DNA of 64,000 nt from Rubrobacter aplysinae. Lineage in GTDB: Bacteria > Actinomycetota > Rubrobacteria > Rubrobacterales > Rubrobacteraceae. Positions 4,292 to 13,534 of this stretch are shown here, piece after piece (positions within the stretch are counted from its first letter, which is position 1; the number at the start of each line of letters is the position of its first letter). The notes under the pieces were generated by a model. It made no database searches. It had not been told where the DNA came from and saw only the letters and a program-made list of their open reading frames with translations. A program made the position numbers and the translations under genes. The stretch is from positions 1 to 64,000 of the forward strand of contig NZ_LEKH01000011.1 in the NCBI RefSeq assembly GCF_001029505.1, read 5' to 3'.

Positions 4292-4371
4292 GATCCCGAG
4301 ATACGGGAAAAGACTGGCGCGGGCCGTACGCGAGGTGCGTCCAGAGGCGCTCAGACGAGGAGGTTTCGAGG

Positions 4372-5400
4372 TTGACGGAAGGTAGCAAGAGCATGGGTGC
4401 CATGGATCCCATGGAGCTGTGGCGGCAGTGGTACGAGACGAGCTCTAAGATGTGGTCCGACGCGATGCAGGGCGGCCGGGAGAGCGCCGTGGACCCTTAC
4501 GGGCTATACCGGCAGTGGGTTAGCGGGATGCAGGAGTTCCAGCAGAAAGCCGAAGAAGGGGCCGAGAGCATACCGCAGTTCGGCGGTGCGGCCAGCATGG
4601 GCGGTGTACCAAACGTAGACCCGGACGAGGTGCGCCAGAACATGCAGCGCTGGATGGACGCCACCGCCGACTCCTACCGGCAGGCAATGGAGGCCAGCCG
4701 GGGCATGATGGATCTCGCGCCCAAGTGGATGCGCGTATTCGAGGACTCCCGGCAGAACCTCATGCAGCAGGAAGGCATACCCTCGGACCCCGTCTCCTTC
4801 GGGGTGCAGTGGTACAACGCCACTAGCGGCCCCGTAGCCGAGTTCGCCGAGGGCGCGCTGCAAAAAGACGAGGTGCTAGGCCCGGCCAGCCGCTTTCTGG
4901 AGAGCTACACCACCTTCTACAACGTCTTCAAGAAAAACGCCGAGGAGAACCTCGGCACGTTGCAGATGCCGAGCCGGTCCGACATCTCGCGCGTGGCGAG
5001 CCTCGTGATCGCGCTGGAAGACAAGGTGGACCGCATCGAGGAGGCCTTCGAGGACTTTGAGTACGGCTACACCGAGCCCGCAAGCTCCGACTCCGTGCAC
5101 AAGCTCGAAGAGCGCATGGACCGCGTCGAGGGCAAGCTCGACCGCCTGCTCTCCGCCGTCGAGAACGGACCGGCGAGCAGTGGTCCGGCGAACGGCTCAC
5201 AGGCCGCCTCCTCTGGCAACGGCTCGTCACAGAGCAGCCCGTCGCAAGCATCGCAGGGTGGGGATCAGGAAGAGGTAAAGGCGACCCAGGCCGCACAACG
5301 CAAGGCCCGGGAGCTAGGCGTGACCCTCTCGGAGGTCAGCGGCACCGGGGCGGACGGCCAGATCACGGTAGAGGACGTGCGTAAGAAAGGAGAGAGCTAG
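4372..5400 (+). CDS. phaE: PHA synthase subunit PhaE-like protein with C-terminal E3-binding-like domain
   Basis: 342 aa. The start is TTG 4372, with GAGGAGG 9 bp upstream. The long helical body is rich in Met, Trp and Tyr. Residues 200-230 (MPSRSDISRVASLVIALEDK and beyond) match the conserved PhaE end that precedes a coiled coil; a second coil covers about 241-263. A Ser/Gly/Gln-rich linker (265-300) leads to residues 303-337, where QAAQRKARELGVTLSEVSGT and ADGQITVEDV follow the pattern of the peripheral subunit-binding domain of 2-oxoacid dehydrogenase E2 proteins. PhaE is the non-catalytic partner of class III PhaC. phaC starts in the very next base, so the two are co-translated. The PSBD-like tail is not part of standard PhaE and could dock another granule protein (inference). 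Confidence 0.82.
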   Translation: MTEGSKSMGAMDPMELWRQWYETSSKMWSDAMQGGRESAVDPYGLYRQWVSGMQEFQQKAEEGAESIPQFGGAASMGGVPNVDPDEVRQNMQRWMDATADSYRQAMEASRGMMDLAPKWMRVFEDSRQNLMQQEGIPSDPVSFGVQWYNATSGPVAEFAEGALQKDEVLGPASRFLESYTTFYNVFKKNAEENLGTLQMPSRSDISRVASLVIALEDKVDRIEEAFEDFEYGYTEPASSDSVHKLEERMDRVEGKLDRLLSAVENGPASSGPANGSQAASSGNGSSQSSPSQASQGGDQEEVKATQAAQRKARELGVTLSEVSGTGADGQITVEDVRKKGES

Positions 5401-6495
5401 ATGGTTCAGGGCACACAGCAGACGGAGCAGCAGTCCCCGGCGGGCTTCGAGGAGTTCTTCGAGAAGTATCAGCAGGGCATGAGCATCGTCCTCGAAGGGG
5501 CCCAGGCCGAGACCGGCAAGACCCCCAAGGAGACGATCTGGACCAAGAACAAGGCCAGCCTCTACCGCTACCAGACCACGGCGGAGAAGAAGTACGATAC
5601 CCCGATACTCTTCGTCTTCGCGCTCATCAACAAGCCCTACATCCTGGACCTCATGCCGGGCAACAGCCTCATAGAGTTCCTCTGCGACCAGGGCTACGAC
5701 GTGTATCTTCTGGACTGGGGCACCCCCGGCGACGAGGACGCGAACATGAGCTTCGAGAACTACGTCCTCGACTACATCCCGCGGGCGGCCCGCAAGGTCC
5801 TCAAGCACTCAGGCGCTGATCAGTTCACCCTCTTCGGCTACTGCATGGGCGGCACCATGAGCGCCATGTACGCCTCGCTCTTCCCCGAGAAGCTGAAGAA
5901 CCTGATCCTGATGACCACCCCGATAGACTTCGACAAGGAAGAGCTCGGGATGTACGGCCTGTTCACCGACGAGCGTTACATAGACGTCGGCACCATGACC
6001 GAGACCTTCGGCAACATCCCCGGTGACATGATCGACACCGGGAATCGCATGCTAAAGCCCGTAACCAACTACGTCGGCACCTACGTGAACATGTGGGAGC
6101 GCATCTTCGAGGACAAGCCGATGGAGACCTGGCTCGCCATGAACAAGTGGGTCAATGATGGCCCGCCGTTCCCCGGCGCGACGTTCAAGCAGTGGATCAC
6201 GGACTTCTACCAGAAGAACAAGCTCTCAAAGGGCGAGATGTACCTGCGGGGCCGCCACATAGACCTCTCGAAGATAGACGTCCCGTTCCTCGTGATCGCC
6301 GGTACCAAGGACCACATCTGCACCCCGCCCCAGGCCGAGGCGGTCATGGACCTCGTCTCCAGCCAGGACAAGGAGTTCTTCACCATGGACGCCGGACACG
6401 TCGGCCTCATGACCGGCCGCGGCTCCAAGAAGATCCTGTGGCCCAAGGTGGACGACTGGCTCTCGGATCGCTCCGAGCTAAAAGCCGAGAGGTAA
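5401..6495 (+). CDS. phaC: Class III-type polyhydroxyalkanoate synthase catalytic subunit
   Basis: 364 aa, the short length of class III/IV PhaC (about 355-370) rather than class I/II (about 560-590). Alpha/beta-hydrolase fold with the synthase box GYCMGG: nucleophile C148, then D304 in GTKDHIC and H333 in AGHVG. This spacing is nearly that of Allochromatium PhaC (C149, D302, H331). It polymerises hydroxyacyl-CoA on the granule surface with PhaE. The ATG follows the phaE TAG directly. A strong hairpin ends the unit downstream. Confidence 0.93.
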   Translation: MVQGTQQTEQQSPAGFEEFFEKYQQGMSIVLEGAQAETGKTPKETIWTKNKASLYRYQTTAEKKYDTPILFVFALINKPYILDLMPGNSLIEFLCDQGYDVYLLDWGTPGDEDANMSFENYVLDYIPRAARKVLKHSGADQFTLFGYCMGGTMSAMYASLFPEKLKNLILMTTPIDFDKEELGMYGLFTDERYIDVGTMTETFGNIPGDMIDTGNRMLKPVTNYVGTYVNMWERIFEDKPMETWLAMNKWVNDGPPFPGATFKQWITDFYQKNKLSKGEMYLRGRHIDLSKIDVPFLVIAGTKDHICTPPQAEAVMDLVSSQDKEFFTMDAGHVGLMTGRGSKKILWPKVDDWLSDRSELKAER

Positions 6496-10650: not shown

Positions 10651-11853
10651 CTAGATCCGCTCGAAGATCGCGGCTATACCCATGCCGCCGCCAATACAGA
10701 GCGTAACCAGACCGTAGCGGCCATTCGTGCGGGCGAGCTCGTGCAGGATCTTGACCATCAGGATGGCTCCCGTGGCCCCGATGGGATGCCCGAGGGCCAC
10801 GGCCCCGCCCATCGGGTTCATCTTCTCGTCCGGCACCCCGAGCTCGCGCCCGACTGCGACGGCGATGGACGCGAAAGCCTCGTTCGCCTCTACGACGTCC
10901 AGATCGTCCACGGTGAGCCCGGCCTTCTTCATGGCCTGCCGGGAGGCCGGGACCATGCCGATACCCATTACCGAGGGGTCCACACCGGCGACGGCGGCGG
11001 AGACGAGCCTGCCGGCGACGGGGAGCCCGAGCTCCTCGGCCTTCTGGGAGCTCGAGACCAGCGCCATCCCCGCACCGTCGTTGATGCCGCTGGCGTTACC
11101 CGCGGTCACCGTGCCGTCTTTGGTGAAGGCCGGCTTGAGCTTGGAGAAGGACTGCTCGTCGGCGTCCCGGCGGACGTGCTCGTGGTCGGTGAACTGGACG
11201 GTATCGCGCTTTTGCTTGATCTCTACGGGCACGATCTGGTCGTCGAAGTAGCCTTCTTCCATGGACTTCTGCGCCCGCTGGTGGCTGCGCAGCGCGTAGG
11301 CGTCCTGCTCCTCGCGGGTAACGTTGTACCGCTCGGCGATGTTCTCGGCGGTCATGCCCATGTGATAGTCGTTGAAGATGTCCCACAGCCCGTCGAAGAC
11401 CATGTGGTCCTGTATCTCGGCGTTCGGCATGCCCATGCGGTAGCCGTAGCGGCCCTTGGGCAGGAGGAACGGCGCCGCGTCCATGTTCTCCGTGCCGCCG
11501 GCCATGACCACCTCGGCGTCGCCGAGGGCAACCTCCTGGGCGGCGGATACTATGGCCTGCAGACCCGAGCCGCACATCCGGTTCAGCGTCATACCCGGCG
11601 TCTCGACCGGGAGCCCGGCTTTCATGCCGACCTGACGTCCCGGGTTCATCCCCTGTCCGGCGGAGAGGATGTTGCCGATTATGACCTGGTCTACCTGCTC
11701 GCCCTCTATACCGGCGCGGGAGAGGACCCCCTCGCCGACCGTCGCGCCGAGGTCGGTGGCCGGGGTGTCCTTGAGCGCCCCGCCGAAGGTCCCTATACCC
11801 GTCCTGAGCGGGGCGGAGATCACGATCTCGCTCCCATTATTGGCGAAGCTCAT
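10651..11853 (-). CDS. phaA: Acetyl-CoA C-acetyltransferase (thiolase), likely PhaA
   Basis: 400 aa, the normal thiolase length. Catalytic residues are C94 in NRMCGSGLQA, H356 in GGAVALGHPIG and C386 in TLCIGGGMG, equivalent to C89/H348/C378 of Zoogloea thiolase. It condenses two acetyl-CoA to acetoacetyl-CoA, the first step of 3-hydroxybutyrate supply. Lying close to phasins, a PhaQ-like repressor and acetoacetyl-CoA reductase-like genes, it is best read as PhaA, although a degradative thiolase would look the same. A strong terminator separates it from the phasin genes upstream on the same strand. Confidence 0.88.
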   Translation of the reverse strand: MSFANNGSEIVISAPLRTGIGTFGGALKDTPATDLGATVGEGVLSRAGIEGEQVDQVIIGNILSAGQGMNPGRQVGMKAGLPVETPGMTLNRMCGSGLQAIVSAAQEVALGDAEVVMAGGTENMDAAPFLLPKGRYGYRMGMPNAEIQDHMVFDGLWDIFNDYHMGMTAENIAERYNVTREEQDAYALRSHQRAQKSMEEGYFDDQIVPVEIKQKRDTVQFTDHEHVRRDADEQSFSKLKPAFTKDGTVTAGNASGINDGAGMALVSSSQKAEELGLPVAGRLVSAAVAGVDPSVMGIGMVPASRQAMKKAGLTVDDLDVVEANEAFASIAVAVGRELGVPDEKMNPMGGAVALGHPIGATGAILMVKILHELARTNGRYGLVTLCIGGGMGIAAIFERI

Positions 11854-12041: not shown

Positions 12042-12368
12042 CTAGCTCCTGGAGCCGCTCCTGCCCTGATAGTAGGAGAGCATGGAGTTGAGAAACTCCA
12101 TGTAGAGGTTCGCCGACTCCTGGGAGAGCGACTGGAAGGCCTCCTGCTGCTTGCGGGTCTGCTCCATCATCTCCTTGGAGATCTGCTCGTTCGAGCGGGA
12201 CTGGCGGTCCAACTCGTGGATCACACCCTCGAAGAAGTTCTGCGTCATCTTCGTGCTCTGCTCCTGGGCTTCCCTGGAGCGATTGCCCATCGTCTCGTAG
12301 GACTCGCGTACGGCCTCGGCGAACTTCTCCGCCGCCTCGTTTACCTTCCTCATCTGCCTGTCGTCCAT
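12042..12368 (-). CDS. Phasin-like PHA granule protein (paralog A)
   Basis: 108 aa, almost wholly alpha-helical and charged. Its second half reads HELDRQSRSNEQISKEMMEQ followed by QQEAFQSLSQES and ends in MLSYYQG. It aligns along its length with the neighbour at 12481-12813 (KELRHQAENNRAMTQQLVE, then QRDAFQTLLEES and SPLTYYKQG). Size, amphipathic helices, high Gln/Glu and location next to a PhaQ-like repressor suggest a granule-coating phasin. It does not carry a recognisable classical phasin signature, so the role is inferred from context. Confidence 0.65.
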   Translation of the reverse strand: MDDRQMRKVNEAAEKFAEAVRESYETMGNRSREAQEQSTKMTQNFFEGVIHELDRQSRSNEQISKEMMEQTRKQQEAFQSLSQESANLYMEFLNSMLSYYQGRSGSRS

Positions 12369-12443
12369 GGCGTGTCTCCTCTTTCGCTCTTTCTTCTCTT
12401 GTGCTATCCGTTCCCCGGGCCCAGCATAGCAAAACGAGAGACA

Positions 12444-12459
12444 CCGGGGCTGACCCCGG
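12444..12459 (-). terminator. Hairpin between the two phasin-like genes
   Basis: CCGGGG / CCCCGG with a 4-nt loop, followed on the minus strand by TGTCTCTCGTTTTGC. It could reduce read-through and set different levels of the two paralogs. Confidence 0.5.
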
Positions 12460-12480
12460 ATCTCCCGCGTCTACCTGGCT

Positions 12481-12813
12481 CTATCTGGAGGCCTTCTTTG
12501 CGGCCTCCAGGCCCTGCTTGTAGTAGGTAAGCGGAGAGTAGAGCAGGTCCATGTAGGCATCCAGAGACTCCTCGAGGAGAGTCTGGAAGGCGTCTCGCTG
12601 CTTCTCGGCCCGCTCGACGAGCTGCTGGGTCATTGCCCGATTGTTCTCGGCCTGATGCCGCAGCTCCTTGATGGAACCTTCCACCATGTCCTGCATGAAG
12701 CGGATATTGCGCTCCTGCAGGCTCACGCCGTGCTCTACCATGCTCTCGTATGAGTCCCGCGTGTTTCGGGCGACCTGCTCGGCGGCCCTGTTGCTCTTCT
12801 CCGCGCTAGCCAC
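12481..12813 (-). CDS. Phasin-like PHA granule protein (paralog B)
   Basis: 110 aa, helical, with no membrane segment or signal peptide. It is a paralog of the product of 12042-12368: the blocks KELRHQAENNRAMTQQLVER, RDAFQTLLEESLDAYMDLLY and SPLTYYKQGLEA align without gaps. The gene follows the PhaQ-like repressor gene by 71 bp on the same strand. In Bacillus megaterium phaQ also neighbours the phasin gene phaP, which supports a granule role. A generic coiled-coil protein is the alternative. Confidence 0.66.
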   Translation of the reverse strand: MASAEKSNRAAEQVARNTRDSYESMVEHGVSLQERNIRFMQDMVEGSIKELRHQAENNRAMTQQLVERAEKQRDAFQTLLEESLDAYMDLLYSPLTYYKQGLEAAKKASR

Positions 12814-12884
12814 TTTACTACTCCCTTTCTCGCGATCCCTCGCGAAAGTCTACGGTGATCCCGGATTCCCGGCTAAGGCTCTGA

Positions 12885-13322
12885 TTAGCTGGCCTCGTCT
12901 TCGTGATCCCCACGGCTCTGTCCGCTCTCTTCTCTACCGGACTCTTCCTGCCGGAGCGGCCGCCCGGTATAGAGCCTGAAGAAAGAGTCCATCGTCCTCT
13001 GATACTGCTCCAGAGAACGGGCCCAGAAGTCTAGGTAGTCCACCCCGGTGTCCGTGATCGAGTACATCCGTCGCGCCGGACCGCCCTTGGAGGTCTCCCA
13101 GCTGGACTCCACTATCCCGTCCTTCTCCATCTGGCGCAGCGTCCGGTACAGCGTGCCGGGATTCATGGCCTCGAAGCCAAATGCCGTGGCCCGCTCCATC
13201 AACTCGTACCCGTAGGAGTTCCATTCCCTCAAGGAGAGCAGTATCACGGGGACCAGCCAGTTCTTCGGCCTGGCCTCCGCCCCGCTCCTCTGCCCCTCTC
13301 GGGGCTCTTTGCCTTCACTCAT
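12885..13322 (-). CDS. phaQ: PadR-family repressor, PhaQ-like (PHA-responsive)
   Basis: 145 aa from ATG 13322, with AGAGAGG just upstream; a 10-residue longer reading is less likely. The PadR winged-helix region covers about 20-95: NWLVPVILLSLREWNSYGYE, PGTLYRTLRQMEKDGIVESS, then a wing containing RRMYSITDTGVDYLD. The C-terminal part, LEQYQRTMDSFFRLYTG, is the dimer helix. PhaQ proteins are PadR members that sense PHA and repress phasin genes. Here it heads a unit with two phasin-like genes. A TATG-N9-CATA palindrome covers its own -10 box, which indicates autorepression. Confidence 0.82.
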   Translation of the reverse strand: MSEGKEPREGQRSGAEARPKNWLVPVILLSLREWNSYGYELMERATAFGFEAMNPGTLYRTLRQMEKDGIVESSWETSKGGPARRMYSITDTGVDYLDFWARSLEQYQRTMDSFFRLYTGRPLRQEESGREESGQSRGDHEDEAS

Positions 13323-13343
13323 GATTACCTCTCTCGCAATCTC

Positions 13344-13360
13344 TATGTGCATTTTACATA
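13344..13360 (-). promoter_or_regulatory. Putative PhaQ operator at its own promoter (site 2)
   Basis: TATGTGCATTTTACATA on the plus strand, the best palindrome of the four. Its reverse complement contains the TAAAAT -10 box of phaQ, so bound repressor would block RNA polymerase. Confidence 0.65.
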
Positions 13361-13378
13361 TACACGGCTGTGAGTCAA
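13351..13378 (-). promoter_or_regulatory. phaQ-phasin promoter
   Basis: On the minus strand TTGACT (13378-13373), a 16-bp spacer, then TAAAAT (13356-13351). It starts transcription of phaQ and probably both phasin-like genes. Confidence 0.6.
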
Positions 13379-13534
13379 GTGTGACCCGGCCGGATCCTCT
13401 CGCGAGGCCGTAACTCCGGCCTCTTCTGCGGCCCCATCCACCTCGGGGGAGAGAGCCGGCGTCGGCGCCTCACATACCCTGAGTACTAGCCCGCCCTCAC
13501 CCGGTACGCCGTGCGGGTGTAGCATCGGACTATA

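Follow-up and report, generated by a model that had tools for sequence, protein, structure and literature searches.

Peripheral subunit-binding domains (PSBDs) constitute textbook parts of pyruvate-dehydrogenase-type complexes, and the presence of such a domain at the end of a PHA synthase subunit raises the question of whether it is genuine and, if so, what it would bind. The gene concerned is located in a stretch of 64,000 nucleotides of Rubrobacter aplysinae (contig NZ_LEKH01000011.1, positions 1 to 64,000), hereafter the window, and encodes a PhaE-like protein for which an initial annotation, made from the sequence alone, had proposed a PSBD tail able to recruit a phasin, reductase or dehydrogenase to the granule. 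Rubrobacter phaE genes were already reported, and said to resemble phaE and phaR alike, in a paper from whose text the linker and the PSBD are absent (PMC8146576). In the open-licence papers that were searched, no E3-binding domain was found on a PHA synthase or a phasin.

The phaEC operon

The phaE gene of the window (Table 1) begins with a TTG start codon downstream of a GAGGAGG motif (approximately 4358-4364), and its translated reading frame ends in EEVKATQAAQRKARELGVTLSEVSGTGADGQITVEDVRKKGES followed by the stop codon, immediately after which comes the ATG of phaC, on the same + strand. PhaC scores above the cut-off of the class III model TIGR01836 (392.1 vs 365.3 bits). PhaE scored 12.9 bits with PF09712 (PHA_synth_III_E), under its cut-off of 25.7, and 45.4 bits with TIGR02132 (Bacillus-type PhaR), under its cut-off of 148.4 and over residues 188-265 only. 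The PhaE body is homologous to that of the PhaE encoded upstream of PhaC in Ktedonobacterales, and LEERLDRVEGKLDRLL is kept among relatives in its last helix. Gene context and homology together indicate that the product works as a PhaE. E3_binding was the only family above cut-off in a Pfam scan of this protein, with no lipoyl domain and no acyltransferase-type core.

Table 1. Features of the phaEC locus, in window coordinates.
Feature	Position	Strand	Basis
phaE-like gene, 342 aa, class III PHA synthase accessory subunit with C-terminal PSBD	4372..5400	+	ORF/DNA
Final helix predicted for the PhaE body (residues 239-264), resembling a coiled coil	5086..5163	+	AlphaFold, helix 239-264
Flexible Ser/Gly/Gln/Asn-rich linker, residues 265-302	5164..5277	+	Low pLDDT, variable among relatives
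PSBD (E3_binding), residues 303-337	5278..5382	+	PF02817, genome search, fold match, conservation
C-terminal end KKGES after the PSBD	5383..5397	+	K339 96%, G340 100% in family alignment
phaC, catalytic subunit, class III PHA synthase	5401..6495	+	TIGR01836

The PhaE tail is a PSBD on a flexible tether

PF02817 (E3_binding) matched PhaE residues 304-337 with an E value of 2.1e-9 and 37.9 bits (cut-off 23.7), and scored 42.8 bits against the tail alone; a search of the whole genome with the same model placed the window match exactly at 5278-5382. The nearest PDB sequence to residues 300-342 was 1w4i, the PSBD of a pyruvate dehydrogenase E2 (E 6.8e-9). When modelled alone with AlphaFold, the tail reached a pLDDT of 89.1 and displayed helices at 10-19 and 37-45, that is, the two parallel helices and structured loop, within some 35 residues, of a PSBD. 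PSBDs constituted all 35 best matches of this model in a Foldseek search against the PDB, with top values for 2eq9_C (E 8.5e-4) and 1w4i (TM 0.81, rmsd 1.0). In the AlphaFold model of full-length PhaE, made with 21 relatives as input, the pLDDT averaged 58 overall, was 83-93 in the tail, and fell below 50 at residues 263-299 of the linker. PhaE thus ends in a genuine PSBD-fold docking domain on a flexible tether. A chance match as the source of the signal is ruled out by the E value of about 2e-9, the fold, and the conservation described below.

The initial annotation had read a PSBD pattern at residues 303-337 behind a flexible Ser/Gly/Gln linker, and had called for a PF02817 search, a structure prediction of the tail, and a survey of PhaE proteins for the same fusion; all three bear it out, the last one in the following section, and the linker is variable in sequence between relatives. 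Compared with the E2 PSBDs of Pyrobaculum (1w4i), Thermus (2eq9) and Bacillus (1w85, 1ebd), the tail has the same length, the same GTGxxGxI/VxxxDV core, the same fold by prediction (TM at best 0.81, rmsd approximately 1), and a similar placement behind a flexible linker. Unlike the E2 chains, its host is a PHA synthase subunit devoid of lipoyl and acyltransferase domains, in which the PSBD stands at the C-terminus.

The tail is conserved in Rubrobacteraceae and absent from sister PhaE proteins

All 39 Rubrobacteraceae genomes, many of them metagenome assemblies, matched the PhaE query, some in the tail alone, and the PSBD occupies the extreme C-terminus in 27 of the 28 extracted PhaEs whose C-terminus is uncut (that of L032 is cut by a contig end). 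The sole exception, L024, apparently the same gene as L088, has a disrupted C-terminus with an early stop inside the PSBD. In most of these genomes PhaE directly precedes phaC. A quirk of a single strain is ruled out by these 27 relatives. Tail positions A304, T305, A308, R310, A312, L319, G324, T325, G326, G329, T332, D335, V336, R337 and G340 are invariant, and the PSBD is more conserved than the linker, which drifts in length and sequence. Since surface positions specific to the PhaE tails (RR at 309-310, Q330 and the RKKG end) are conserved next to this drifting linker, selection on a contact is suggested.

Beyond Rubrobacteraceae the surveys were samples. Among the matches listed for 180 genomes of other actinobacterial families no homologue of the PhaE body appeared; all of them were PSBD matches, and they lay in long reading frames of the kind that E2 genes would have. 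In a plasmid collection, the search hit two E2 genes of Halocatena and nothing else. Ktedonobacterales (Chloroflexota) yielded five strong PhaE bodies, and the PSBD is absent from the four with readable C-termini (L096, L097, L192, L194), the fifth being masked near its end. These class III PhaEs share with those of Rubrobacteraceae the same body and the same gene order, phasin-phaE-phaC, whereas only the latter carry the PSBD. The tail is therefore not typical of PhaE proteins in general, and sequence comparison indicates that it was gained in, or kept solely by, Rubrobacteraceae. Furthermore, PhaC of Ktedonobacterales (L096) and PhaC of the window are 63% identical with a single gap, and no compensating insertion able to receive the tail was seen in this comparison. 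Because the Ktedonobacterales pairs lack the tail and their PhaC is this similar, catalysis and PhaE-PhaC assembly are probably independent of it.

Other proteins carry related PSBDs

The genome of R. aplysinae holds nine E3_binding matches, distributed among three E2-like genes, PhaE, and a cluster on another contig (C4), in which five copies are spread over three genes with amphipathic or helical products. A gene without PSBD adjoining them matches Phasin_2, with apolipoprotein models below cut-off. This cluster (L040:3176-9596, equivalent to C4:225175-231595) encodes phasin- or LEA-like amphipathic proteins with 1-4 PSBDs, as well as an unnamed conserved domain (DVLLDVPxLxVEEINLELxDLRA...), and clusters of the same type recur across the family (L099-L102, L104, L105, L171, L178-L183); they possibly form the coat of a granule or a desiccation-protein system.

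Relatives hold up to 15 PSBDs per genome. The non-E2 hosts that were read comprise amphipathic or LEA-like proteins (1-4 copies), phasin-like proteins, small coiled-coil proteins and the ribosomal protein bL20. Two of these lie beside phaEC: a PSBD-tailed phasin homologue (L094:4194-5099, -), 38% identical to the phasin upstream of phaEC in Ktedonobacterales, and another PSBD-tailed phasin-like or amphipathic protein (L164:566-1681, +). The initial annotation had regarded phasins as possible cargo of the tail; recruitment of a phasin via the PSBD is not supported as such, and some phasin-like proteins of relatives carry the same domain themselves. One large host, a protein of 1172 aa (L180:554-4069, -), has LEA-like repeats interspersed with four PSBDs, followed by a C-terminal region that by eye is possibly PRC-barrel-like or of stress type. 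Genes for small, lysine-rich coiled-coil proteins with a single PSBD at the end are located at L107:5174-5980, L113:5625-6314, L166:1225-1650, L168:1549-1983 and L172:1479-2087; the two that were scanned (L107 and L113) showed no named family above cut-off other than E3_binding.

Nearly all Rubrobacteraceae genomes have a single bL20 gene, and a profile scan of a PSBD-bearing bL20 from a relative recovered PF00453 (1.2e-40) together with two E3_binding copies. Among the bL20 genes listed, 16 of the 29 that were read bear 1-3 PSBDs on a C-terminal extension, with examples at L103:7217-8101, L106:6201-7133, L108:5515-6306, L114:5681-6541 and L202-L227. The bL20 frame of R. aplysinae itself has 127 aa, the extended form being found only in relatives. 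In four genomes (G013, G014, G015 and G025) the PSBD matches consist of E2-type genes and PhaE only, which makes PhaE the most universal non-E2 host.

PhaE tails diverge from E2-type docking domains

A domain tree (FastTree) was built from 142 distinct PSBDs, 96 non-E2 and 46 E2, over 37 columns. All 96 non-E2 PSBDs were separated from the E2s without error (support 0.66), the PhaE tails grouping in one clade with the other non-E2 PSBDs of Rubrobacteraceae, and 45 of the 46 E2 PSBDs formed a clade at 0.96; the support of the tree is moderate overall and, because the PSBD is short, weak at its base. Each PhaE tail scored higher, by 12-51 bits (log2), with a profile of the non-E2 tails from which PhaE was left out than with the E2 profile.

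The residues involved point in the same direction. At positions 132-156, in Bacillus stearothermophilus E2 numbering, Pro132 occurs in 45/46 E2 PSBDs vs 0/26 PhaE tails, a hydrophobic residue at 137 in 42/46 vs 0/26, Arg156 in 45/46 vs 3/26, and Pro153 in 26/46 vs 2/26; the tails would thus have lost these features in 26, 26, 23 and 24 of 26 cases, respectively, and the E2 kind of proline patch (132/153) with hydrophobic 137 is not seen in them. The human PSBD binds peripheral subunits through a hydrophobic patch of Pro133 and Pro154 (PMC11700594). These two prolines are 21 positions apart, as are columns 132 and 153 of the present alignment. Other features are shared with E2: helix I is basic, with a mean charge of +1.9 in PhaE vs +1.2 in E2, and the equivalent of Arg135 is kept in 24/26 PhaE tails, neither being kept in the bL20 tails. 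PhaE of the window itself has Gln at the Arg135 position. The domain has almost no net charge in PhaE, whereas it carries -1.2 in the amphipathic hosts and -6.9 in the tails of bL20.

These data bear on the proposal of the initial annotation that the tail docks a dehydrogenase, in which case E3 (dihydrolipoyl dehydrogenase) or a 2-oxoacid dehydrogenase E1 would supply acetyl-CoA or NADH beside the granule. The fold is the same, its nearest solved relatives being E2 PSBDs that include the E3-bound 2eq9, 2eq7 and 1ebd, and the basic helix I and the Arg135 equivalent fit as well; E1 and E3 should be available in a genome with three E2-like genes, and such docking would also be workable in genomes with no non-E2 host besides PhaE. 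Which side chains a PSBD uses for binding differs between complexes. However, the proline patch, hydrophobic 137 and mostly Arg156 are replaced, which together with the placement of the tails in the non-E2 clade weakens this model, as does the Gln of the window protein, and PhaE has no lipoyl domain, so that a docked E1 or E3 would be without a substrate arm there. We consider this explanation unlikely.

Putative role of the tail

Recruitment to the granule by the tail is plausible. Our preferred explanation, put forward tentatively as one somewhat short of probable, is that the tail is a docking tag, derived from a PSBD and specific to the family, through which a putative partner is recruited to the synthase on the granule. 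The PhaE body would hold PhaC at the growing granule, and the tethered PSBD would reach out and bind a partner protein reading the signature shared by the non-E2 PSBDs; PSBD-tailed proteins would thereby be gathered at a common site, either the granule or the cell interior. The face used by E2 PSBDs for E1 and E3 is altered, and for this reason a protein or surface specific to Rubrobacteraceae is the probable partner. A known counterpart is E3BP/PDHX of mitochondrial pyruvate dehydrogenase, which, non-catalytic like PhaE, brings a partner into a large assembly by means of its PSBD (PMC11700594), although it keeps a lipoyl domain, a core domain and the proline patch, all three of which PhaE lacks.

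Alternatively, the PSBDs could assemble with one another or with the synthase, the chains of PhaE, the PSBD-tailed amphipathic proteins, or PhaE and PhaC cross-linking the granule coat. Several hosts with 2-4 copies would suit multivalent cross-linking, helix I of PhaE and the bL20 PSBDs are oppositely charged, and the retention of the tail where PhaE is the sole host would be accounted for; nevertheless, sister PhaE-PhaC pairs do without the tail, PhaC has no matching insertion, and we know of no report of strong self-association by isolated PSBDs, which makes this reading quite unlikely. The domain might instead be a spreading or solubility module with no specific partner, a small fast-folding cap, in agreement with its many unrelated hosts and varying copy number within one family; the strong conservation of the PhaE-specific surface positions beside a drifting linker speaks against this, and we regard it as decidedly unlikely. 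Granules are tethered elsewhere to nucleoid by PhaM/PhaF-type proteins, and small helix-loop-helix folds resemble one another generally; still, a nucleic-acid-binding helix-extended-loop-helix (SAP/Lsr2-like) that tethers granules to nucleoid or RNA is highly improbable, despite one host being a ribosomal protein, as the strong PDB fold matches are all E2 PSBDs, none of them a DNA-binding domain, and the domain charge is near zero or acidic.

A wider form of the docking-tag explanation, possible but rather doubtful, is that the PSBD serves Rubrobacteraceae as a general C-terminal recruitment tag, first or most universally on PhaE and later on coat proteins of phasin type, on repeat proteins of stress type and on the sole bL20; all would be read by one putative hub protein, which would amount to a docking code used throughout the family and separate from 2-oxoacid dehydrogenases. 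Given the four genomes in which PhaE is the sole non-E2 host, any such hub would have to work with PhaE alone as well. A conserved divergent PSBD clade on a PHA synthase subunit, granule-type proteins and a ribosomal protein shows that the domain is reusable outside the dehydrogenase context, and provides a testable handle on protein recruitment to PHA granules across a whole bacterial family; should a partner come to light, the tail, 40 residues long, would lend itself directly as a natural tag to place enzymes on bioplastic granules.

Genes surrounding phaEC

Across 26 loci, the only genes recurring often within 5 kb of phaE were those for an iron-type alcohol dehydrogenase (17 loci), a lactonase-like protein (12) and an acyl-CoA synthetase (11). 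As conserved neighbours these three were considered as partners of the tail and set aside, none having an obvious PSBD-receptor character. In the window, a lactonase-like gene (metallo-beta-lactamase fold by eye) and an iron-type alcohol dehydrogenase lie upstream of the pha genes (124-2476, -). A thiolase (10651-11853) is located near two short phasin-like genes without PSBD (frames 12045-12470 and 12484-12849; region 12045-12849, -), which are followed by a PadR-like regulator (frame 12888-13469); homologues of these phasins and of the PadR gene are also found near phaEC in Ktedonobacterales.
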